This document shows, in pieces, positions 3,920 through 25,145 of a stretch of 64,000 nucleotides of DNA. The notes under the pieces were generated by a model. That model worked only from the letters and a program-made list of their open reading frames with translations, was not told the origin of the DNA and ran no database searches. The stretch is from Thauera sp. JM12B12 (GTDB lineage Bacteria > Pseudomonadota > Gammaproteobacteria > Burkholderiales > Rhodocyclaceae), in contig NZ_CP154859.1 of the NCBI RefSeq assembly GCF_039614725.1, positions 806,001-870,000 on the forward strand, given 5' to 3'. The position numbers and the translations under genes are program-made. Position 1 is the stretch's first letter, and each line of letters opens with the position of its first letter.

Positions 3920-5377
3920 TCAGCGCAGCTGCGCTCCCGCCAGCTCGCCCAGCGTCATCAGCGCATGCACATGGCGGTCGCTGAAGGGGTAGCAGCCCGA
4001 CAGGCGCAGGTGGCGGGTGTAGCGGCCCGAGGGCGAGTAGAGCTTGCCGGGCGTCATGCCGATGCCGCGGCGCAGCGCGAGGTCGAACAGACGGTTGGTG
4101 TCGCAGCCCGCGGGCAGTTCCACCCACACCAGGAAGCCGCCGCTGGGCTGGGTGGCGCGCGTGCCGGGCGGAAAGGCGTCGTGGATCAGGCCGCGCAGGC
4201 GCTCGGTCTGCGCCGCATAGGTGCGGCGCAGGCGGCGGATGTGCTGGGCGTAGCCGCCGCTCTCGAGGAAACGCCCGATGGCCTCGCCGAGCAGGGCGGG
4301 CTGCGCCACCGACGAGCAGAACTTGAGCTCGGCCAGCTCGCGGCCGAAGCGTCCGCCCTCCATCCAGCCCACGCGCATGCCGGGCGCCAGCGTCTTGGTG
4401 TAGGACGCGCACACGATGATCCAGCCGTCGCTGTCGAAGGCCTTTGCGGTCGGTTGCAGCGGCGTGCTGAACTGCAGCTCGGCGTAGAGCGCATCCTCGA
4501 TCACCGGCACCTTGTAGCTGCGCGCCAGGTTGGCCAGCCGGCGCTTGTTGGCTGGGCTAATGCTGGTGCCCAGCGGGTTGTGCACGGTGGGCATGGTCAC
4601 CACCACTTTCAATCGTCCTTCTGACAGCAGCAGCTCGAGCGCGTCGAGCGACAGGCCGCCTTCGGGATGGGTGGGGATCTCGATCGCCTTCAGTCCGAGG
4701 CGGTCGAGCAGCGGGATCAGGTTGAAATAGGTCGGCGACTCCAGGCCCACCGTGTCACCCGCCTGGGTGGTGGCGCGTAGCGCCAGTTGCAGGGCCTCCA
4801 TGCAGCCGTTGGTGAGCAGGATGGCGTCGGGCTGCAGCTGCATGCCCAGCTCGGTGGCGTGGCGGCAGATCTCGCGGCGCAGCAGCAGCGGGCCCGGCGG
4901 CAGCGAATAGTCGGTCAGCAGCTCGGGGTGGCGGCGGGTGAGCTCGGCGACGATGCGGCCGAGCTTCTCGCCGGGATAGAAGTCGCTGCCCTTGGGGCAG
5001 GCGAGCGACAGGTCGATGGTGTCGGGCCGGGTCTGGGCGGCGAGCACGCTGGCGATGCGGCTCAGCACCGTGCTCTCGGCGGCGATCGCCGAGCTCGGCT
5101 CGGCGGCGGCTGCCTGCGGCGCCGGCGGCACGGCGAGCTGCGAGCGCACGAAGTAGCCGGATTGCGGGCGCGCGTCGACCAGGCCCTGGGCCTCGAGCTG
5201 GCGGTAGGCGGCCAGCACCGTGTTGATGCTGATGCCGCGGCTGGTCGCCGCCTCTCGCACCGAGGGCAGGCGGGCGCCAGCGACCAGCCGCCCGTCGCGG
5301 ATCGCTTCGCGCAGTTCTTCGGTCAGCGCCTGATAGAGCGGGGCGTTCTGGGGGGCCGTGGTCGCAGCAGGGGGCAC
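3920..5377 (-). CDS. MocR-type GntR/aminotransferase-fold transcriptional regulator
   Basis: The 485-residue protein has an N-terminal GntR winged helix-turn-helix (about residues 10-80, with RLPSVREAA and INTVLAAYRQLEAQG) fused to a type I PLP aminotransferase-like domain (about 115-480). Residues expected for PLP binding are present: N267, D295, Y298 and lysine K328 in SYTKTLAPGMRVGW. Proteins of this type are regulators rather than enzymes and sense PLP or amino-acid derivatives. It is divergent from a LysE-family exporter 135 bp away, so it probably controls that exporter and itself through the CTGTRACC half-sites between them. The effector cannot be read from sequence. Confidence 0.93.
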   Translation of the reverse strand: MPPAATTAPQNAPLYQALTEELREAIRDGRLVAGARLPSVREAATSRGISINTVLAAYRQLEAQGLVDARPQSGYFVRSQLAVPPAPQAAAAEPSSAIAAESTVLSRIASVLAAQTRPDTIDLSLACPKGSDFYPGEKLGRIVAELTRRHPELLTDYSLPPGPLLLRREICRHATELGMQLQPDAILLTNGCMEALQLALRATTQAGDTVGLESPTYFNLIPLLDRLGLKAIEIPTHPEGGLSLDALELLLSEGRLKVVVTMPTVHNPLGTSISPANKRRLANLARSYKVPVIEDALYAELQFSTPLQPTAKAFDSDGWIIVCASYTKTLAPGMRVGWMEGGRFGRELAELKFCSSVAQPALLGEAIGRFLESGGYAQHIRRLRRTYAAQTERLRGLIHDAFPPGTRATQPSGGFLVWVELPAGCDTNRLFDLALRRGIGMTPGKLYSPSGRYTRHLRLSGCYPFSDRHVHALMTLGELAGAQLR

Positions 5378-5396
5378 AGTGGGCGCGTCCTTGGGT

Positions 5397-5482
5397 GGTT
5401 ACAGCCGTTCTGTAAAACGGTCTGTGACCACTATAAACATGTTTTTCTGGATCTGTAACCTTCCTGCTGCGCCTCGTATAGT
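5397..5482. promoter_or_regulatory. Divergent promoters and repeated operator half-sites between MocR regulator and exporter
   Basis: A repeated half-site is visible as CTGTGACC (5422-5429) and CTGTAACC (5453-5460), in the same orientation with starts 31 bp apart, plus an inverted copy GGTTACAG (5397-5404). Both directions show a TATAGT -10 hexamer: plus strand 5477-5482, minus strand complement 5430-5435. Each is 17 bp from a weak -35 position that falls on the same CTGTAACC site (plus 5454-5459, minus 5453-5458). A regulator bound there would touch both promoters. Direct repeats of this kind are known for MocR proteins; assignment to this regulator is inference. Confidence 0.65.
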
Positions 5483-5512
5483 GATCTCCCGAAGCCCCTC
5501 GAGGAGAACGCC

Positions 5513-6115
5513 ATGATCGACCTGCCGCTGATGACCTACGTCGCCACGATGTCCGTGACGCCGGGGCCCAACAACATCATGCTCGCCGCCTCCGGGGTCA
5601 ATTTCGGTTTCCGCCGCACGCTGCCGCACCTGCTCGGCGTCAGCGCCGGCAACAGCGTCCAGGTGCTGATCGTCGCCAGCGGCCTGGCCTGGGTGATGGC
5701 CTGGCTGGACGCCTTGCGCCTGCCGCTGGTGGTGGTCGGCTGTGGCTATCTGCTATGGCTGGCGCTGCGCCAGGCACGCGCCGGCCAGCCGGGCCGCGGC
5801 GGCCGGGTCGCGCCGCTCGGGTTCGTGGCCGCGGTGCTGTTCCAGTGGGTGAATCCGAAGGCGTGGATGATGGTGCTCAACGTCGCCATCCTGTTCCTGC
5901 CGCGCGACGCCGACTGGACGACGGCCGCCGGGCTGGCGCTGCTGTGCATGTCGGTGAACCTGCCCTGCATCACCCTGTGGGCGGTGGCGGGGGCAAGGCT
6001 GCGGACCTGGCTGCAACAGCCGGCCGCGCTGACGGCATTCAACTACACGATGGCGGCGCTGCTCGCCGCGACCGCGCTGTGGATCGGCGCGGACGAGGCG
6101 GGCGCGTTGCTGTAG
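5513..6115 (+). CDS. LysE/RhtB-family amino acid exporter
   Basis: The 200-residue inner-membrane protein has about six hydrophobic segments and the family N-terminal signature TPGPNN (residues about 17-22). LysE/RhtB proteins export amino acids or related compounds using the proton gradient. A strong ribosome site (GAGGAG) precedes the ATG at 5513. It is divergent from a MocR-type regulator whose likely half-sites overlap its promoter, so export is probably induced by the regulator's ligand. Substrate is unknown. Confidence 0.93.
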   Translation: MIDLPLMTYVATMSVTPGPNNIMLAASGVNFGFRRTLPHLLGVSAGNSVQVLIVASGLAWVMAWLDALRLPLVVVGCGYLLWLALRQARAGQPGRGGRVAPLGFVAAVLFQWVNPKAWMMVLNVAILFLPRDADWTTAAGLALLCMSVNLPCITLWAVAGARLRTWLQQPAALTAFNYTMAALLAATALWIGADEAGALL

Positions 6116-6117
6116 GC

Positions 6118-7857
6118 CTACTGCTTCTGCACGATCGCGCTGCCGCCGCCGTGGCGCAGCGGCTCGCTGACTGCGGTCACCGTGCCGTCGGCGTTGAAGC
6201 GGATGCCGTTGGCGGCGCCGATCTGGTCGGTCTCGCGCCACGTGTGGCCCCTGGCCTCCAGCGCCTTCGCCTGTTCGCTGCCGGGGAAGTTCAGCAGGGT
6301 CTCGACCAGCGTGGTGTCGCCGTTGCGCTGGCTCATGCGTGGCGCGGCGAGCGCGTCGGCCAGGCTCATGCCCAGATCGACGTGATTGACGATGGTCTGC
6401 AGCGCGGTGGTGATGATGGTCGAGCCGCCGGGCGAGCCGATCGTGAACGCGGGCGCGCCGTCCTTGAGCACGATCGTCGGGCTCATGCTCGAGCGCGGGC
6501 GCTTGAAGGCTTCGGGTACGTTCGGGTGCGGGCCTTCGAAGTCGAAGTCGGTGAGCTCGTTGTTGAGCAGGAAGCCGCGCCCCGGCACCACGATGCCGCT
6601 GCCACCCCAGTCCTCGATGGTGAAGGTATAGGCGACCACGTTGCCTTCGCGGTCGGCGACCGCGAGGTGGGTGGTGTGCATCGACTCCTGCGCGAGCGGC
6701 CTTGGCTGCGGGCGCAGCGGCACCGAGCGGTCGTCCTCGAAGGGGTAGGGGTCACCGGCCGCGACCTTGCCCGGCGCCGCGCGTTCGCCGATCCGCTGCG
6801 CGCGCTCGCGGGCGTAGGCCTTTGACAGCAGGCCGTCCTTGGGAAAGTCCACGAACGCCTCGTCGGCGACGTAGGCGTTGCGGTCGGCGAAGGCCAGGCG
6901 CGAGGCCTCGAGGTAAAGGTGCTCGATTTCGGCGCGCGGCTTGCCCGCGAGATCGAAGGTCTCGAGCATGTTGAGCGCCTGCGCGATCGCGATGCCGCCG
7001 CTCGAGGGCGCGGGCATGCCGTACACCTCGTAGCCGCGGTAGGTCGAGCGCACCGGCTGGCGGATGCGCGCCTCGTAGTCCTTGAGGTCGGCCATGGTCA
7101 GGCCGCCGGCGATCACGCTCACGCCCGGATTGACCGGCGGGTGGTTCACCGCCGCCACCATGCTGGCCGCGATCGGACCCTCGTAGAAGGCCTTCACGCC
7201 GCCGCGCGCGATGTCGCGGTAGGTCTGCGCGAGGTCGGGGTTGCGGTGCACGCTGCCCACCGGCAGCGCCTTGCCGTCCTGCAGGTAGAGCGCCGACGCG
7301 GTCGAGAAGCGCGCGAACTTGGCCTCGTTGATCGTGTTGATGCGGTGGAAGTTGGGGCCGACGGTGAAGCCTTCCTCGGCCACGCGGATGGCGGGGGCGA
7401 GCACCTTGTCGAAGCCCATCGTGCCGTAGCGCGTCAGCGCCTCGTGCCAGCCGCGCACGGTGCCGGGCACGCCGACCGAGATGCCGTTGGGCACGGTGGC
7501 CTTCCAGTCCATCGCCTTGCCTTCGGCGTCGAGGAAGACGCCAGGGTGGAAGCTCGCCGGGGCGAGCTCGCGGTGGTCGAGCGCGATCACGCGCTTGTCC
7601 TTCGCCGAATAGATCAGCATGAAGCCGCCGCCGCCGATGCCGCAGCTGAACGGGTCGGTGACGCCGAGCGTGGCCGCGGCCGCGACCGCGGCGTCGACGG
7701 CGTTGCCGCCGGCGTTCAGGATCTGCATCGCCGCCAGGCTGGCTTCGTGCGAGATGGTGGCGACCGCGCCGCCGTGGCCGGTGTCGACCGGCTGCTTCGC
7801 CAGGGCGCCGAAGGCGGCCATCATGACCGCGGTGGCGAGGAGGGTGCGTGTTCTCAT
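6118..7857 (-). CDS. ggt: Gamma-glutamyltransferase (glutathione hydrolase), periplasmic
   Basis: The 579-residue precursor belongs to the N-terminal-nucleophile hydrolase family that cleaves gamma-glutamyl bonds of glutathione. A typical signal peptide spans residues 1-20 (ends FGALA). The autoprocessing site and nucleophile are visible as M-H-T395-T396-H, followed by the conserved small-subunit start, and the oxyanion GSPGGST loop lies further on. The ATG at 7857 is chosen for its signal peptide and a GGAG ribosome site; the frame stays open upstream but that part lacks family similarity. It ends two bases from the convergent LysE gene. Confidence 0.95.
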   Translation of the reverse strand: MRTRTLLATAVMMAAFGALAKQPVDTGHGGAVATISHEASLAAMQILNAGGNAVDAAVAAAATLGVTDPFSCGIGGGGFMLIYSAKDKRVIALDHRELAPASFHPGVFLDAEGKAMDWKATVPNGISVGVPGTVRGWHEALTRYGTMGFDKVLAPAIRVAEEGFTVGPNFHRINTINEAKFARFSTASALYLQDGKALPVGSVHRNPDLAQTYRDIARGGVKAFYEGPIAASMVAAVNHPPVNPGVSVIAGGLTMADLKDYEARIRQPVRSTYRGYEVYGMPAPSSGGIAIAQALNMLETFDLAGKPRAEIEHLYLEASRLAFADRNAYVADEAFVDFPKDGLLSKAYARERAQRIGERAAPGKVAAGDPYPFEDDRSVPLRPQPRPLAQESMHTTHLAVADREGNVVAYTFTIEDWGGSGIVVPGRGFLLNNELTDFDFEGPHPNVPEAFKRPRSSMSPTIVLKDGAPAFTIGSPGGSTIITTALQTIVNHVDLGMSLADALAAPRMSQRNGDTTLVETLLNFPGSEQAKALEARGHTWRETDQIGAANGIRFNADGTVTAVSEPLRHGGGSAIVQKQ

Positions 7858-7953
7858 GGTGCGCTCCGTCGTGCTGGGGAGCATGACGTTAGCACCGGGC
7901 GTGGAGCGCGCCCAAGGCGGGAATACCCGGGTTGTTTTGTGCAAAACGAGCTC

Positions 7954-7982
7954 GGGCGGCGGCGCCTGGGACGCCGCCGCCC
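7954..7982 (-). terminator. GC-rich hairpin downstream of ackA
   Basis: An 11-bp perfect inverted repeat (7954-7964 with 7972-7982, all G and C) with a 7-nt loop lies a few bases beyond the ackA stop. On the minus strand it is followed after several bases by a short TTTT run. It could be the terminator of the pta-ackA transcript, but the T-tract is displaced, so this is a moderate call. Confidence 0.5.
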
Positions 7983-7988
7983 CGGGGG

Positions 7989-9173
7989 TCACAGCCCCAG
8001 CGTCTGCGCGGTGTAGCGCGCGATCATGCGCTCTTCGTTGGTCGGCACCACGGCGACCGCGACGCGGCTCGCCGGCGTGTCGATGCGGCGCGCGTGGGCC
8101 GCGTTGGCGGCCGCGTCGATGTCCACGCCGAGCCAGGCCGACAGCGCAGCGACCTGCGTGCGCACCGGCGCGGCGTGCTCGCCGATGCCGCCGGTGAACA
8201 CCAGCGCGTCCAGCCCGCCCGCGGCCGCGGCCAGCGAGCCGAGTTCGCGCGCGATGCGGTAGCAGAACAGGTCGACCGCCTCCTTCGCCTCGGGCGCGTC
8301 GGAAGCAAGCAGGGTGCGCATGTCCTGGCTGATGCCCGACACGCCGAGCAGGCCCGACTCCTTGTACAGCAGCCGGGAGAGCGCGCGCGCATCCATGCCC
8401 TTTTCTTCCATCAGGTAGAGCAGGACGCCGGGGTCGAGGCTGCCGGTGCGGGTGCCCATCATCAGGCCCTCGACCGCGGTGAAGCCCATGGTCGAGGCCA
8501 CGCTCTTGCCGTCGCGCAGCGCGCACATCGAGGCGCCATTGCCCAGATGGGCGATCACCACCGCGCCCTGGGCACGCTCGCCGATGATCTCGGGCAACTG
8601 GCGGGCGACGTAGTCGTAGGACAGGCCGTGGAAGCCGTAGCGCTTGATGCCGCCCTTGGTGAGCCGGCGCGGCAGGGCGAACGCCTGCGCGATCGCTGGC
8701 TGGGTGCGGTGGAACGCGGTGTCGAAGCAGCCGACCTGCGGAATCCGCGGCATGAGCGCAGTGACCGCGTGAACCGCGCGCAGGTTGTGCGGTTGATGCA
8801 GCGGCGCCAGCGGCACGAAGTCCTCGAGCTCGTCGATGAGCTCGGCATTGAGCACCACCGGCGTGCTGTAGCGCTCGCCGCCATGCACGATGCGGTGGCC
8901 GGCGGCGACGATGTCGAGCGCCGGATTGTGGCGGGCGAGCAGCGCGAACACGTGGTTGAGCGCGTCGCGGTGCTGCTCGCCCTGGCTGCCGGCGGTGGGC
9001 ACTGCCTCGCGGATGCGTTCGCCGTCGGCGGTCTTCAGCGTGACCTCGGGCGTGGCGCCGATGCCCTCGACCTGGCCGGAGACCGCGGGGGCCTCGGCGA
9101 CGTCACCGTTGATCGGATAGAGCGCGAACTTCAGGCTCGACGAGCCCGCGTTGAGAACGAGGACGGCTTTCAT
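7989..9173 (-). CDS. ackA: Acetate kinase
   Basis: The 394-residue enzyme of the ASKHA fold interconverts acetyl phosphate plus ADP with acetate plus ATP. The N-terminal phosphate-binding LNAGSSSLKFAL motif, the GFHGLSYDYV segment, the HLGNGAS segment and the GGIGEHA motif near the C-terminus are all present. The ATG at 9173 overlaps the stop of the upstream phosphate acetyltransferase (ATGA), so the two are translationally coupled. The open frame extends upstream into that gene but the conserved protein begins exactly at MKAVLVLNAG. Together they form an acetyl-CoA to acetate route. Confidence 0.97.
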   Translation of the reverse strand: MKAVLVLNAGSSSLKFALYPINGDVAEAPAVSGQVEGIGATPEVTLKTADGERIREAVPTAGSQGEQHRDALNHVFALLARHNPALDIVAAGHRIVHGGERYSTPVVLNAELIDELEDFVPLAPLHQPHNLRAVHAVTALMPRIPQVGCFDTAFHRTQPAIAQAFALPRRLTKGGIKRYGFHGLSYDYVARQLPEIIGERAQGAVVIAHLGNGASMCALRDGKSVASTMGFTAVEGLMMGTRTGSLDPGVLLYLMEEKGMDARALSRLLYKESGLLGVSGISQDMRTLLASDAPEAKEAVDLFCYRIARELGSLAAAAGGLDALVFTGGIGEHAAPVRTQVAALSAWLGVDIDAAANAAHARRIDTPASRVAVAVVPTNEERMIARYTAQTLGL

Positions 9174-18707: not shown

Positions 18708-20225
18708 CTACTTGTTCACCGGCATGACGAACTCCGGCCCCTTGGCGGCGCTGTCCGGCCAGCGCTGCATCACGCTCTTGTAGCGGGTGTAGAAGCGCAC
18801 GCCTTCCTCGCCGTAGGCGTGGTGATCGCCGAACAGGCTCTGCTTCCAGCCGCCGAAGGAGTGCCAGGCCATCGGCACCGGGATCGGCACGTTGATGCCC
18901 ACCATGCCCACCTGCACCGACTGCGCGAAGGCCTGCGCCGTGCCGCCGTCGCGGGTGAAGCAGGCGACGCCGTTGCCATAGGTGTGGCCGTTGATCAGCT
19001 CGATTGCCTCGGCAAAGCTGCCGACGCGCACCACCGACAGCACCGGCCCGAAGATCTCCTCCTCGTAGATGCTCATGCCCGGGCGCACGTGGTCGAACAG
19101 CGTGGCGCCGAGGAAGAAGCCCTGTTCGCGGCCGGGCACGGTCAGCTCGCGGCCGTCGAGCACCAGCGTCGCGCCCTCGCGCACGCCGGCGTCGATGCAG
19201 GCGCGGATGCGGTCGCGCGCGGCGGCGGTGACGATCGGGCCCATGTCGGTGCCGGGCGCCTCGCCGTCGCCGATGCTGAGTCTGCGCGCACGCTCGACGA
19301 CCTTCGCCACCAGTTCATCGGCAATGTCGCCCACCGCCACCGCGACCGAGATCGCCATGCAGCGCTCGCCTGCCGAGCCGTAGGCGGCGCCGATCAGCGC
19401 GTCGGCGGCCTGGTCGAGGTCGGCGTCGGGCATCACCACCATGTGGTTCTTGGCGCCGCCGAGCGCCTGCGCGCGCTTGCCGTGGCGGGCCGCGGTCTCG
19501 TAGATGTGGCGCGCGATCGGTGTCGAGCCGACGAAGCTCACCGCCTGCACGTCCGGATGTTGCAGCAGGCCATCGACCGCGAGCTTGTCGCCCTGCAGCA
19601 CGTTGAACACGCCGTCGGGCAGGCCGGCCTCGCGGAACAGCTCGGCGGTGAGCAGCGAAGGCGAGGGGTCGCGCTCGGAGGGCTTGAGGATGAAGCTGTT
19701 GCCGCAGGCGATCGCCACCGGCGCCATCCACATCGGCACCATGAACGGGAAGTTGAAGGGCGTGATGCCGGCAGTGACGCCGAGCGGCATGCGCTGGCTC
19801 CAGTTGGCGATGCCGCCGCCGACGTTGTCCGAATGGCGTCCGCTCAGCAACTGCGGGATGCCGCAGGCGAACTCGATGACCTCGAGCCCGCGCTGCACCT
19901 CGCCCTGCGCATCCGGAAAGGTCTTGCCGTGCTCGCGCGTGATCAGGCGGGCGATGTCCTTGCTGTAGCGCTCCACGAGTTCCTGCATGCGGAACAGCAC
20001 CTTGGCGCGGCGCTGCGGCGTGACCGCCGCCCAGCCGGGAAAGGCCGCGCGCGCGGCGGCGACCGCGGCCTCGACGTCGGCCGCGCTGGCGAGCGCGAGC
20101 GTGCGCGCCACCGCGCCCAGCGCGGGGTCGAACACCTCGGCACTGCGTTCGCCGGAACCGGCGTGGGGCTGGCCAGCGATCCAGTGCGGGATGTGTGCGG
20201 GGGCCTGGGTGTAGCTCGAAGTCAT
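18708..20225 (-). CDS. mmsA: Methylmalonate-semialdehyde dehydrogenase (CoA-acylating)
   Basis: The 505-residue aldehyde dehydrogenase converts methylmalonate semialdehyde (valine and thymine breakdown) or malonate semialdehyde to propionyl- or acetyl-CoA. Visible are the NAD-fold [11 protein letters not shown] segment, the [15 protein letters not shown] loop, the [15 protein letters not shown] motif typical of MmsA/IolA, and the catalytic Cys in YGSAGERCM near residue 290. Length is normal. It stands alone here without mmsB or other valine genes, so its pathway partner lies elsewhere. Confidence 0.94.
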
Positions 20226-20333: not shown

Positions 20334-21686
20334 TCAGACCGCTGCCTTCAGCGCCGGCGCCTGCGCCGCGGGCTTACGGTGCTCGCGCACCAGGGTCTCG
20401 GCGCTGAAGCGGAAGCTCGACGGGTACTTGGCCTCGACCCGGTAGAGCACGCCCACCAGCCAGCGCAGGTAGGCCACGTCGCCACAGTGCTCGAAAGCCT
20501 CCTGCTGCAGGGTGGGCACTTCGCGCAGGTCGCGCAGGATCGCGCGCACCAGGCCTTCGCGGATGTCCGGGCCGTAGAACACCTCGTCGAGAATGTGCAC
20601 CCGCCGCGCGGGGGTCTCGGGGGCGGCGGGGTCGCAGGGGGTGTGCTCCCACTCGGTGTGCCACCAGTGCTTGTCGTCGAGGTAGCGCGAGCGCCGCACC
20701 ACGGTGTCGGGCGCGAACTTCAGGCGCAGGGTCTGCAGGGTCTGCGAGTCGATCGGCGCCAGCATGTCGTGCAGCGTGACCCAGCCGTCCGCGAACACGT
20801 GGTCGGTCCTGAAGATGAACTGCAGGTCGCCGTAGCGCGTGTCGACGGCGTCCTCGCCCACTTCCATGCGGAAGAACACGAAGTCGTAGTCGGCCTTCTG
20901 GTACTTGTCCGAAGCGGTGGTGAACTGCGAGCTGGGCACCACGTACCAGTCCTGCAGCCGCTGCAGCGACCACAGCATGCCGACGTTGGCGATGGCCTCG
21001 CGGTGCTGCGAGGCGGTGGCATGCTTGAGCCGGAACGGGAGGGCGAAGAGCGCGACGTAGAGGTCCTGCTCCGCGCGCGACATCGGCTTGAGGGCGCGGC
21101 GCAGCGCCAGCAGGTTCGCGCGCGACAGGGTGACGATGTCCTTGCAGTCGCCGCCTACCCGGCCTTCCTTGAGGGCGCGCCGCCAGATGCCGCCCTGTTT
21201 CACCTTGGCGTAGGCGCGCTTCGAGTACAGGAAGCGGAACAGCTTCTGCACCTTCTGCACTTCCTCGGCGGTGTAGGCGGTGCGCGCCTCGCGGGGAAAG
21301 CGCAGCTCGGGACGGGCGCGCGGGGCGGCCGCCCCGGACGCGGGCGCATGATCGTCCTTGTCGGGCGCGGGGGCGTCGGGTGCATCCAGCGCCCAGTAGG
21401 CCTCGCGCGCACGCTCGAGCACGGTGGCCACGTTGAGCAGGTCGAGGGCGACGTCGCGCATGAATGCGGGCGTCCCGCCGCCGTCCTCGCCCTGATAGGC
21501 CGGGATGTCCATCTCGAGCACGCCCCCTTCGCCGGCGCGGGTGTAGGGCGCCAGCACCGCCAGCGCCCCCTCGAGCAGCTCGATCGCGCGCGCCATGTCG
21601 GCGCTGGCGATGCCGTCCATGTGGCTCAGCTGGTCGGCGAGGCCTGCAGCGCTGCGCAGCAGGTCGCGAAAAGCCGAGGCCTTCAT
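20334..21686 (-). CDS. Conserved-looking hypothetical protein, 450 residues, second gene of unknown operon
   Basis: I do not recognise the family. The protein is soluble with no signal peptide or membrane segment. Residues 1-110 are helical, 110-135 are a Pro/Ala/charged linker, and 135-450 form a mixed alpha/beta region. The latter has an aromatic-rich strand pattern ([35 protein letters not shown] at about 266-309) and a Trp/His-rich stretch [14 protein letters not shown] (337-350). The strand pattern loosely recalls ADP-ribosyltransferase-like folds, but this is a guess. Its ATG overlaps the stop of the 891-residue upstream gene by 4 nt, so the products are likely made together. Confidence 0.85.
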
Positions 21687-24358
21687 GCGTGGGTTTCGGG
21701 CGGGGCGATCGTCAGGGTGACGCCGCTGCCGGCCGCGAGCGGGGGCGTGCCGCCTTGCTGCACATAGGTGGCCAGTGCGCGCTGGTACACGCTCGCCGCC
21801 AGCTTGGCCTCGACCTCGGCCGCGCGCAGCGCGACCTCCTGCGCACGCATCGCCTCGGAGTAGGGCTCCGTGCTCGGTCGCGCGCCGACCACCGCGTCGA
21901 GGTAGAGCCCGCCGGAGGCGAGCAGCAGGGAGGCGGGCTCGATCGGAGTCTCACGGTCGAGCGTGGCCTCGCGCAGGTCGGCGGCGAGGCTGGCGATGCG
22001 CTGCGCGAGCGCGGCGTCGGCCTCCTGCTCGCCGGGCTCGGCGGTGACGCCGAACAGCGCGCCGCGCGGCCTGACCGTCGCGCCCAGCGTCAGCAGGCCG
22101 ACCGAGGCGTCGAGTCCGGACCCCGGGCCTGCGCCCACCAGCAGCCGGTTGCGCGCACCGCGCGTCAGCGGCAGGGGAGCCGGCTTGGCGTATTCCTTCT
22201 TCAACAGCGTCTCGAGCGCGCCGATCACGCGCTCGAGACAGACGCCGCGTGCGTCCTCGTCGAGGTCGAAGGGCAGGCGTGCGTCGCGGAACTCCCGTAC
22301 CACGGCGTGGAGGTCGCCCAGCCCGAAGCGGATCGATTCATACACCCCGCTGCCGGCGATGATCTCGACGCCGGGGATGACCTCGAAGCCGAGCTCGTCG
22401 AGGAAGATGCCGCCCTCGTGGCGGTTGTACAGGCGGTGGAACATCAGGTTGAGGGTGCGGCCCTCGTTGATGTTGCGGATCGTGGCGCTGGTCTGGTCGC
22501 GGTTCTCGACCGTGCTCTTGGTGCTGGACGTCGTGGACACCTCTTCCCGCGAATGCTGGTTCACCGCCTGCGAGGCCTTGCGGGCGACCTTGCTCACCGC
22601 CTGGCAGAAGTTCTTCAGCGAGGTGCTGCTGCCGGCGCTGGCGCTGGCCTCGGCGGTGACGCCGAAGTAGCTGCCCGACACCGAGGTGGAGAGCTTCATC
22701 TCGCTCGAGCGCTCCTGTTCGGTGCGCGTCTGGTTCTCCATCTCGCTGCTGAGGTCGTTGCCCTCGGCGCGGCTGAGGTCGAACACCGAGGTGGCCGAGC
22801 GCGTCACCGTGGTTTCCTGGGTGTAGTTGCGCGCCACGGTGACGGTGCGTTGCTCCCCCGGGGCGAGGTTGATGCTGCTCACCAGCTCGCCGACATGGCT
22901 GCCCTGCCAGCTCATGCGGTAGGACAGCCCCTCCAGCAGCGACAGCCGCGGCAGCACGGTGGCGGTGACGCCCGGCAGCGGGTGCTTGAACACGCTGTAC
23001 TTCACCAGCGCCGAGCGCCCGGTGATGGAATCCTCGAACACCGGCAGCATCACCACGCAGCGCTGGCGGAAGGCCTCGCTCGCGGCGCACTGGTCCATGA
23101 CCGTGCGCAGCGTGGTGCCGTCGGCGGTGACGAAGCCCTCCGGGGCGCGGTGGAAGAGGTACACCGCCTTGCCCGCCTGGCGCAGCGCCGTCTGCGTGTC
23201 CGCGACCGGGTCGCGCGAGGTGTCGACCTGGGCGTAGTCGGCGACGACCTCGGTGTGCGCCTGTTCGTCGACCACGGTGCGCACGGTCGTGCCGACGCGG
23301 AAGAAGAGGAATTTCTTCGCTTCGTAGAGCGTGCGCGTGTAGCGCGAGGTCCACTTCGCCTCGCGGCGGAACTGGCGGTAGATCTCGCCCGGCTTGACCG
23401 CCACCTCCTTGCCGTCGGGGAAGGTGAACTTGTCGTCCTTCAGAAACAGGTAGTAGCCCAGGTCGGCGGCCTGCGACACCAGGCGCTCGAGCCGGCGCTC
23501 GACGTCGTACTGGCGCATCTGCAGGCGCAGCGATTCTGTCTGCAGGCGCTCGACGGCGTCGATGTCCAGACTCTGCGCGATGATCTGCTCGATCGAGCGC
23601 GTGGTGGCCTTGCCCACCTCCTCGGCGACCTTGGCGGCGAAGTCGCGCTGCTGCAGAAGCTCGCGGAAGCAACGCTGGATGATCGCCGGACGCAGGTCGA
23701 CCTCGGCGTACTCGGTGAAGGCCTGCGTCGCCTCGGCCTCCGAGGCGAACACCAGCTCGGCGCCCTCCACCTGCGCCCAGCCGGCGGCGTAGCCGTCGGG
23801 GGTGGAGAAACTGTCGAAGCGCAGCACCTCGCCGGCGCGCGGCTGCAGCAGGTAGCAGCGCCCGCTGGCGTGCTGCAGGGCGACGTCCGAGGGCGGCGTC
23901 TCCTCCGCCGCCCAGGTGATCCGCGCCGCAGCGGGTTTCGCGGGCGTGCCGAGCTCGGTGCGAAAGAGCGCGCGCCCGGGTGGCGCGCCTTCGGGCGGCG
24001 ATGCGGGCGCCACGCGTACGATGCGCGGCTGCCTGCCGCCGCACAGCTCGGCCAGGCGGGCCTCGTCGGGCGGCGCGAACAGCCCCCACGCGTGCTCGAA
24101 ATATTCGCGCAGCGCCGCGATCGAGACCTCGCCGCTCGGCGCCAGGCTTTGCAGGATCTCGCCCCACGGGATGTCGACCGCGCGCTTGCGGCGGAAGGCG
24201 AGCGTTGGCGCCGCCTGTCGCGCCGGAACGGGATCCTGTACGCCGAGCACCGTGGGCAGGGACGCAGACTGCGCTGCGTCATCCACCACCGGGTAGGCAG
24301 CCTCGGCGGCATCCGCGGCCAGGGGCGAAGGGGGTGTTTCAGGACCTTGCTGTGCCAT
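21683..24358 (-). CDS. Large hypothetical protein, 891 residues, first gene of unknown operon
   Basis: No known family is recognised. There is no signal peptide or clear membrane helix. Residues 1-60 look disordered; 205-300 contain long charged helices likely to form a coiled coil; 300-480 are mixed alpha/beta. Residues about 490-640 are a striking Ser/Thr/Gln/Glu-rich stretch with repeated polar runs (for example [18 protein letters not shown]) that then re-enters a hydrophobic core ([12 protein letters not shown]). The C-terminal 170 residues are Ala-rich helices. Such composition suggests an elongated or multimeric scaffold. It is coupled by an ATGA overlap to the 450-residue protein downstream. 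Confidence 0.85.
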
Positions 24359-24536
24359 GAGCGATCTCCATGCCTTGCCGCGTTCGATGGGGCGGACATG
24401 CCTTCACCATAGGAGTGCATGCCGCGATCGTCCACTTGGAGATGCCGATTTGCCGCCCACCCGCAGGGCAGCGTAGTCTGCGCGGCGCGGGACGATGGCG
24501 GGGCTGCACCCACCCGGCCCGCCCGGAGTGCATCTC

Positions 24537-25145
24537 ATGGAATTCGCCAAGATCTTCATCACCCTGGCCGCGCTGATCAACCCGTTCGGGGCGATCCCGG
24601 TCTTCATCGGCCTCACCCATGGCCAGTCCGCGCTCGAGCGCCGGCGCACGGCGCGCACCGCCGCGCTGGCGAGCTTCATCGTGGTCGCGATCACCGCGCT
24701 CGGCGGACAGTACCTGCTCGCCGGCTTCGGCATCACCGTGCCCTCGCTGCAGGTCGGTGGCGGTGCGCTGTTGTTCCTCGTCGCGATCTCGATGTTCAAC
24801 GCGCAGCCCACGCCGGGGCGCACCACCGCCGAGGAGACCCACGAGGCCGCCGAGCGCGCCAACATCGCGGTGGTGCCGCTCACCATCCCGCTGCTCACCG
24901 GGCCGGGCACGGTGAGCACGGTGATCATCTACGCCGACCAGGGGACGCGCGCGGTGCTGATGCTGCTCGGCGCCGGGTTGCTGATGGGCGTGGTGGTGTG
25001 GTTCGCCTTCAGCCTCGCCGGGCCGATCAGCCGGCTGGCGGGACGCACCGGGCTCAACATCATGACCCGGCTGATGGGCCTGGTGCTTGCCGCGCTGGCG
25101 GTGGAGTTCATCGCGGCGGGCATCCGCGCTTATGTGAACGCCTGA
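24537..25145 (+). CDS. MarC family (UPF0056) integral membrane protein
   Basis: The 202-residue protein has about six hydrophobic segments and the family motifs NPFGAIPVF near the N-terminus and PLTIPLLTGPGTVST in the middle. MarC proteins are inner-membrane proteins of unresolved transport function; the early link to multiple antibiotic resistance was not upheld. The ATG at 24537 is preceded by GGAG; an in-frame codon upstream would add residues not seen in the family. It is divergent from the unknown operon across 178 bp. Confidence 0.92.
   Translation: MEFAKIFITLAALINPFGAIPVFIGLTHGQSALERRRTARTAALASFIVVAITALGGQYLLAGFGITVPSLQVGGGALLFLVAISMFNAQPTPGRTTAEETHEAAERANIAVVPLTIPLLTGPGTVSTVIIYADQGTRAVLMLLGAGLLMGVVVWFAFSLAGPISRLAGRTGLNIMTRLMGLVLAALAVEFIAAGIRAYVNA

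Follow-up and report, generated by a model that had tools for sequence, protein, structure and literature searches.

A gene pair of Thauera sp. JM12B12 couples a predicted OspC3/CopC-type enzyme to a large protein whose partner gene changes between loci

Here, we describe a pair of overlapping genes, named A and B, which lie in a 64,000-nucleotide stretch of DNA (the window, bases 806001-870000 of the 4.17 Mb single-contig genome of Thauera sp. JM12B12). A previous reading made from the letters of this DNA alone, called the sequence-only reading below, had proposed two ATGA-coupled genes for proteins of 891 and 450 residues, and both open reading frames (ORFs) are indeed present on the minus strand (Table 1). 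The same region also holds two antisense ORFs, 982 aa; such ORFs are frequent at ~70% GC, and we accept the minus-strand pair as the true genes, since conserved relatives exist for both of its products. At least 25 protein clusters related to A and at least 24 related to B were found among those listed, the window's own protein being counted in each case and only the ~8000 candidates with most shared words being scored. The coiled-coil segment and the long Ser/Thr-rich region described previously for A were recovered as well: the model has helices at residues 222-261 and 265-298, and the serine plus threonine content peaks at 0.40 in residues 541-580, with 3-17% in windows outside the rich stretch.

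Table 1. Position of the gene pair and of features within the encoded proteins (window coordinates)
Feature	Position	Strand	Remarks
Gene A	complement(21683..24358)	minus	891 aa ORF; constant component; protein of a superfamily of unknown function, with relatives
Gene B	complement(20334..21686)	minus	450 aa ORF; OspC3/CopC-type ADP-ribosyltransferase-like, without ankyrin domain; profile and fold matches
ATGA overlap, stop of A / start of B	21683..21686	minus	read from the junction sequence
Coiled-coil helical hairpin of A	23462..23692	minus	model residues 222-298
Core of A common to the wider superfamily	22391..22987	minus	model residues about 457-655; recurs in larger proteins
Ser/Thr-rich stretch of A	22436..23035	minus	residues 441-640; 20-40% Ser+Thr per 40-residue window
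Amphipathic beta-hairpin-like tip of A	22625..22726	minus	model residues 544-577; possible membrane element; low model confidence
N-terminal helical part of B	21273..21686	minus	residues 1-138; outside the OspC/CopC match; model
Catalytic-type domain of B	20418..21272	minus	residues 139-423
B His222	21021..21023	minus	aligned with CopC His137; invariant in 23 sequences
B Asp260	20907..20909	minus	aligned with CopC Asp172; invariant in 23 sequences
B Phe271	20874..20876	minus	aligned with CopC Phe183; invariant in 23 sequences
B Glu418	20433..20435	minus	probable counterpart of catalytic CopC Glu325, from the end of the structural alignment

The sequence-only reading recognised no known family in either protein, which holds for A, still uncharacterised, and not for B, which has kin in the catalytic domain of OspC3 and CopC. 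Scanned singly, both proteins lacked a convincing match in Pfam, NCBIfam and PHROGs, and phmmer searches of both against the PDB gave nothing convincing; weak Presenilin, DUF3155, Rieske and telomere-protein rows in the single-protein scans were set aside as chance. By profile, fold and aligned residues, a catalytic domain of the OspC3/CopC type, ADP-ribosyltransferase-like, is present in B. Thus, B appears to be a protein with the NAD-using fold of these effectors, its chemistry and its target being predictions. In PMC9239266, from which the CopC numbering is taken, a His-Phe-Glu triad including His137, Phe183 and Glu325 is given for CopC. The structural alignment ends with B residue 422 paired with CopC residue 329; from this end, Lys420 of B probably stands in place of the essential CopC His327, and the Glu418 and Lys420 positions are Glu and Lys in all six compared sequences. 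Of the two essential Asp residues of CopC, Asp172 and Asp230, the profile alignment stops before the second; Asp307 of B is a candidate counterpart and is likewise Asp in 6 of 6. The same paper ascribes a C-terminal ankyrin-repeat domain to all OspC/CopC members. Such a domain was not found in B, where 27-28 residues follow the matched domain and no Pfam family was seen at E up to 5. Since neither this domain nor the one type III secretion marker tested (see below) was found, we do not class B among the OspC effectors.

The case for an entirely undescribed system is thus partly undone on the side of B, which has OspC3/CopC kin and whose type of domain also occurs elsewhere, in Streptomyces proteins and in one Legionella adelaidensis protein. 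In a plasmid of Streptomyces sp. NBC_01320 (L022; L-numbers are our handles for the stretches compared) the B-like domain sits inside a single annotated gene of ~79 kb; B-like matches fall at five places in this record and at 12 and 2 places in two other Streptomyces plasmid records.

In order to describe what accompanies A, 14 loci with the A C-terminus and downstream DNA visible were counted (the window, L008-L017, L020, L021 and L042). L005, L006 and L007, in which A is cut by a contig end or interrupted, were left out, as were L001, L018 and L044 (copies of the window) and L019 and L024-L041 (copies of other loci). A same-strand partner gene follows A at 10 of the 14 loci. At nine of them (the window, L008, L011, L012, L014, L016, L020, L021 and L042) it overlaps A or starts no more than 18 bases away, and in L013 it comes after about 0.5 kb. 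Comparison of the ten partners by blastp and phmmer gives six kinds, with no detectable similarity between them: the OspC type (the window and L016), a kind in L013 and L020 (E 3e-40 to each other; DUF6402 above the Pfam cut-off in L020 and below it in L013), one in L014 and L021 (E 3e-54), one in L011 and L042 (E 1e-7), and single-locus kinds in L008 and L012. Two of the kinds have hydrophobic stretches. Remote kinship between kinds may exist; the L014 and L021 partners match that of L011 at E 0.001 and 0.017 over some 36 hydrophobic residues, which was not taken as kinship, and the B profile (A2) did not pick up any of the remaining eight partners (E up to 10). The fixed pairing expected previously was therefore not borne out, a B-type partner being found at 2 of 14 loci, another kind at eight and none at four. 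Judging from the sequences, the kind of partner does not follow the similarity of A: L011 and L020 have the mutually closest A proteins (38%) but partners of different kinds, and L013 and L020 have their partner kind in common at 29% A identity.

Several loci show further genes. In L011 a membrane-protein-like gene comes after the partner. In L020 (positions 4220-8810) two further genes stand beside A and the DUF6402-type partner, which we take, from their sequence, to be a resolvase-like gene and a SIR2-like gene of 1272 aa. A second, diverged A gene (877 aa) is carried by Oricola nitratireducens (L042:5141-9067); an ORF of 129 aa ends 4 bases before this gene, and the partner, of 298 aa, lies 2 bases after it. 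In a Crocosphaera metagenome-assembled genome (MAG; L007:150-3896) A is in two pieces, separated by an ORF which is presumably transposase-like.

As for A itself, no library match above a curated cut-off was obtained, and its profile (A3) reached only E 0.58 and 0.59 against the PDB. Sequence comparison places A in an uncharacterised superfamily. The A family was found in Proteobacteria, Bacteroidota, Acidobacteriota, Cyanobacteria and Desulfobacterota, and the wider superfamily also in Actinobacteria and haloarchaea. The model of A (mean predicted local distance difference test score, pLDDT, 72; low confidence at 509-581 and 599-621) combines the coiled-coil hairpin with seven beta strands, each 19-28 residues long. 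The most beta-amphipathic windows cluster at the tip: 13 of the top 25 (789 in all) start at one of 23 positions there, as many as are reached by 0.13% of circular shifts, the overlapping windows not being independent; the strongest amphipathic helix of A comes directly after. In a Foldseek search with the model, the first 14 rows are pore formers of the aerolysin family (E 0.0046-0.089, 4-11% identity). Taken together, these observations are a hint of a membrane-inserting beta core in A. A is filed in no pore-forming family. Pfam Binary_toxB_2 matched only one relative (L050, 0.076; 0.013 for its core stretch, the one hit among 17 members), and SH3_3 reached 0.0021 at best, in one of 21 members; by eye, a stretch at the N-terminus looks SH3-like in A of both L011 and L020. 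The sole Foldseek row with E < 0.001 is an uncharacterised giant-virus protein of 642 aa (Yasminevirus, BFVD A0A5K0U6Q4; E 2e-4, probability 0.97, 14% identity).

The wider superfamily is also met on plasmids. One member, L047, matches 29 plasmid records: 18 of Streptomyces (16 of them S. clavuligerus), two each of Haladaptatus, Ruegeria and Novosphingobium (the last falling outside the core), and one each of Embleya, Nostoc, Polaromonas, Caballeronia and Psychrobacter. Seven proteins from these records were scanned against Pfam, four of them giving no noteworthy match; the Haladaptatus protein has a C-terminal DUF2272 (2.6e-15), that of Psychrobacter an OmpA-like stretch (1.5e-5, under the Pfam cut-off) and that of S. 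clavuligerus a Tectonin match at the cut-off. The C-terminus of the Nostoc protein, without a Pfam match, is one we take to be GH19-chitinase-like. A Ruegeria plasmid (L058:4936-9640) encodes a superfamily protein of 1237 aa; its gene overlaps another, of 332 aa, that belongs to no known family, a layout like that of A and B; the product of the latter gene has no detectable similarity to the other partners.

A constant large protein with an exchangeable smaller one, one of the smaller kinds having an NAD-using enzyme fold and two having hydrophobic stretches, suggests a carrier with payloads. We consider the chances evenly balanced that A and B form a modular two-component (polymorphic) toxin-like system, in which A would be the carrier or translocator and B the enzyme. 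A, as the constant part, would bind its partner, possibly through residues 1-138 of B, and bring it up to, or through, the membrane of a second, perhaps eukaryotic, cell; the Ser/Thr-rich amphipathic tip of its core of long beta strands would enter that membrane. B would then modify a protein of the target cell, perhaps by arginine ADP-riboxanation. Exit from the producing cell might occur by lysis or through the contractile injection system of the genome, and in other bacteria an A-family protein stands beside an unrelated partner in the place of B. The further proposition, that A represents an undescribed family of carriers or pores with interchangeable payloads encoded by the next gene, one of them ADP-riboxanase-like and working without a type III secretion system (T3SS) in the manner of binary toxins, seems to us rather doubtful. 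The dedicated two-protein complex of the sequence-only reading survives in so far as a joint function is likely, and gives way to the picture of one constant protein whose partner can be exchanged.

The gene pair could also be read the other way round, with A as a chaperone, inhibitor or immunity protein which keeps B harmless in its own cell. The overlapping genes suggest 1:1 production of the two proteins, and the next same-strand gene after B is dehydrogenase-like, with no other immunity gene evident beside B. However, A is conserved across loci with dissimilar partners, unlike a specific antitoxin, and it is intact without any partner in L009 and L010, which makes this explanation very improbable.

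A number of observations weigh against a carrier-and-enzyme toxin. The four loci without a partner include, apart from L009 and L010, only fragments of A (L015 and L017). Within the A model, confidence is lowest at the tip, and when 14 distant members were included it held 6 of the 25 windows (of 711), as reached by 2.5% of shifts. None of the aerolysin-type Foldseek rows has E < 0.001 and their probability is at most 0.30; AcrA rows, placed below them, have a higher probability (0.87), and a second aligner returned generic coiled-coil matches only, the aerolysin fold being absent from the 50 rows listed. A protective-antigen-like core was also considered, 8 of 10 PDB rows (E up to 10) being protective antigen at E 0.31-1.8, all one protein. 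Since the reversed alignment gave ten other rows with a best E of 0.021, and the match was lost in a wider alignment (one unrelated row, 9.3), it receives no weight. On the side of B, the Asp260 position is Asn in the Legionella adelaidensis relative and the Phe271 position is Ser in a Streptomyces relative. According to PMC9239266, alanine changes of His137 and of Phe183/Phe207 did not stop CopC. Because these changes are tolerated and the Phe and Asp counterparts are not kept in every distant relative, such residues are weak evidence of activity. Finally, the secretion markers point to no exit route in the source genome: TssB (PF05591) was found in 4 of the 10 A-bearing genomes and is absent from the source genome, and the T3SS secretin TIGR02516, the sole T3SS marker tried, exceeded its cut-off in none of the ten. 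Its sub-cut-off matches, in 10/10 A-bearing genomes and 6/14 controls, are what other secretins would give.

The pair is accessory. B was found in 2 of 29 genomes of the genus, the source genome included, in 1 of 369 genomes of the class (the source genome only) and in none of 345 genomes of the phylum of the Desulfobacteraceae locus, where an empty answer shows little. Full-length A was likewise found in 1/369 genomes of the class, again the source genome, with the distant core alone in 3 more. In the genus of the Vibrio locus (1/148), the phylum of the Desulfobacteraceae locus (1/345) and the order of the Aquimarina locus (1/296, plus the core only in two) the sole full match was the genome of that locus itself. 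Relatives of A, with 80% down to 22% identity in the alignment, come from Thauera, Geothrix, Oricola, Vibrio, Aquimarina, Crocosphaera, Desulfobacteraceae, Acidobacteria, a Bugula symbiont and others, and from Aureibacter, the one plasmid record matched by A; pieces of A stand on two contigs of one Thauera MAG (L005 and L016). Among the clusters listed, the closest named relative of B is that of Thauera sp. WH-1 (90% identical). A as a phage protein was considered and dropped, with no match in 50,697 phage records. In viral contigs, 1 of 27 pattern matches to A encodes a relative (L020, an IMG/VR contig), and none of seven pattern matches to B does. The neighbours are ordinary genes, as noted previously: the one at 18708-20225 is, as we assume from its sequence, aldehyde dehydrogenase-like and the one at 24495-25145 presumably MarC-like. 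The GC content of A and B (0.70-0.71; 0.93-0.94 at third codon positions) equals that of these two flanking genes, so that there is no compositional sign of recent arrival.

Such a rare and accessory occurrence would also suit a module acting in its own cell, an anti-phage or abortive-infection system with an exchangeable effector. NAD-using and membrane-type effectors are typical of defence systems too, and L020 adjoins the presumably SIR2-like and resolvase-like genes mentioned above. We nevertheless hold a defence role to be distinctly unlikely, as neither A nor B has a PADLOC match at E up to 0.1 (2023 library, described systems only), one of ten scanned proteins has a weak one (LeoBC, 0.004), and the long beta core with its amphipathic tip would be left unexplained. 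Moreover, the characterised kin of the B domain are injected effectors.

Neither N-terminus resembles a signal peptide, as judged by eye and not by a signal-peptide program. An extracellular contractile injection system (eCIS) is encoded in the source genome at about 4.000-4.011 Mb (L059-L060), where the marker Pvc16_N (PF14065) adjoins two sheath genes and two tube-type genes, for a gp19-type and a CIS tube protein. This marker exceeded its cut-off in 5 of 10 A-bearing genomes, the source included, versus 0 of 14 controls; PMC8213781 gives eCIS in 1.9% of surveyed genomes, a set of different composition. These numbers may favour an eCIS-linked explanation, in which A would be no translocator of its own. 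However, Pvc16_N is missing from the other five A-bearing genomes, including the isolates of Geothrix, Oricola and Vibrio mytili, the source locus lies ~3.1 Mb from the window, and eight stretches around the Pvc16_N markers of the five genomes contain no match to A, its core or B. We regard the eCIS link as unlikely.

No description of such a pair, and no paper on DUF6402, was found in the open-licence literature, which is weak evidence of absence for a family without a searchable name. If the carrier-and-enzyme reading is true, environmental bacteria would use an enzyme type of effectors injected by gut pathogens as one payload among several in a simple two-gene system. This would bear on the origin of OspC-type effectors and on ways in which large proteins may cross membranes when no injection machine is involved; a family of large proteins lacking annotation would also gain a testable logic of carrier and payload.

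Among known systems, the OspC3/CopC arginine ADP-riboxanases, which also bind calmodulin, resemble B in the catalytic-type domain, in profile, fold and aligned residues. B differs in the missing C-terminal ankyrin domain, the extra N-terminal helical part, the coupling to A and the probable Lys in place of His as the second catalytic-motif residue; OspC/CopC are delivered by type III secretion, whereas the source genome has no T3SS secretin over the cut-off, as judged by one marker. The eCIS cargo toxins are comparable in that the source genome encodes an eCIS, but A and B stand far from it and have no relative in the eight stretches named above. Aerolysin-type toxins share with A the long beta strands, the Ser/Thr-rich amphipathic stretch and the first 14 Foldseek rows, although these matches stay at the low levels given above. 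Binary AB toxins such as C2 and iota, which have an ADP-ribosylating component and a separate pore component, share the layout in which the genes of an enzyme and of a large beta-rich protein are neighbours; A, however, has no significant relation to their pore components and its partner changes between loci. From polymorphic toxins, the A family differs in that its effector would be a separate gene, with no immunity gene evident beside B from the gene order as judged by eye; what A and its partners have in common with them is a constant part with variable effectors, of six kinds at 10 loci, and C-terminal domains fused to some members of the superfamily.

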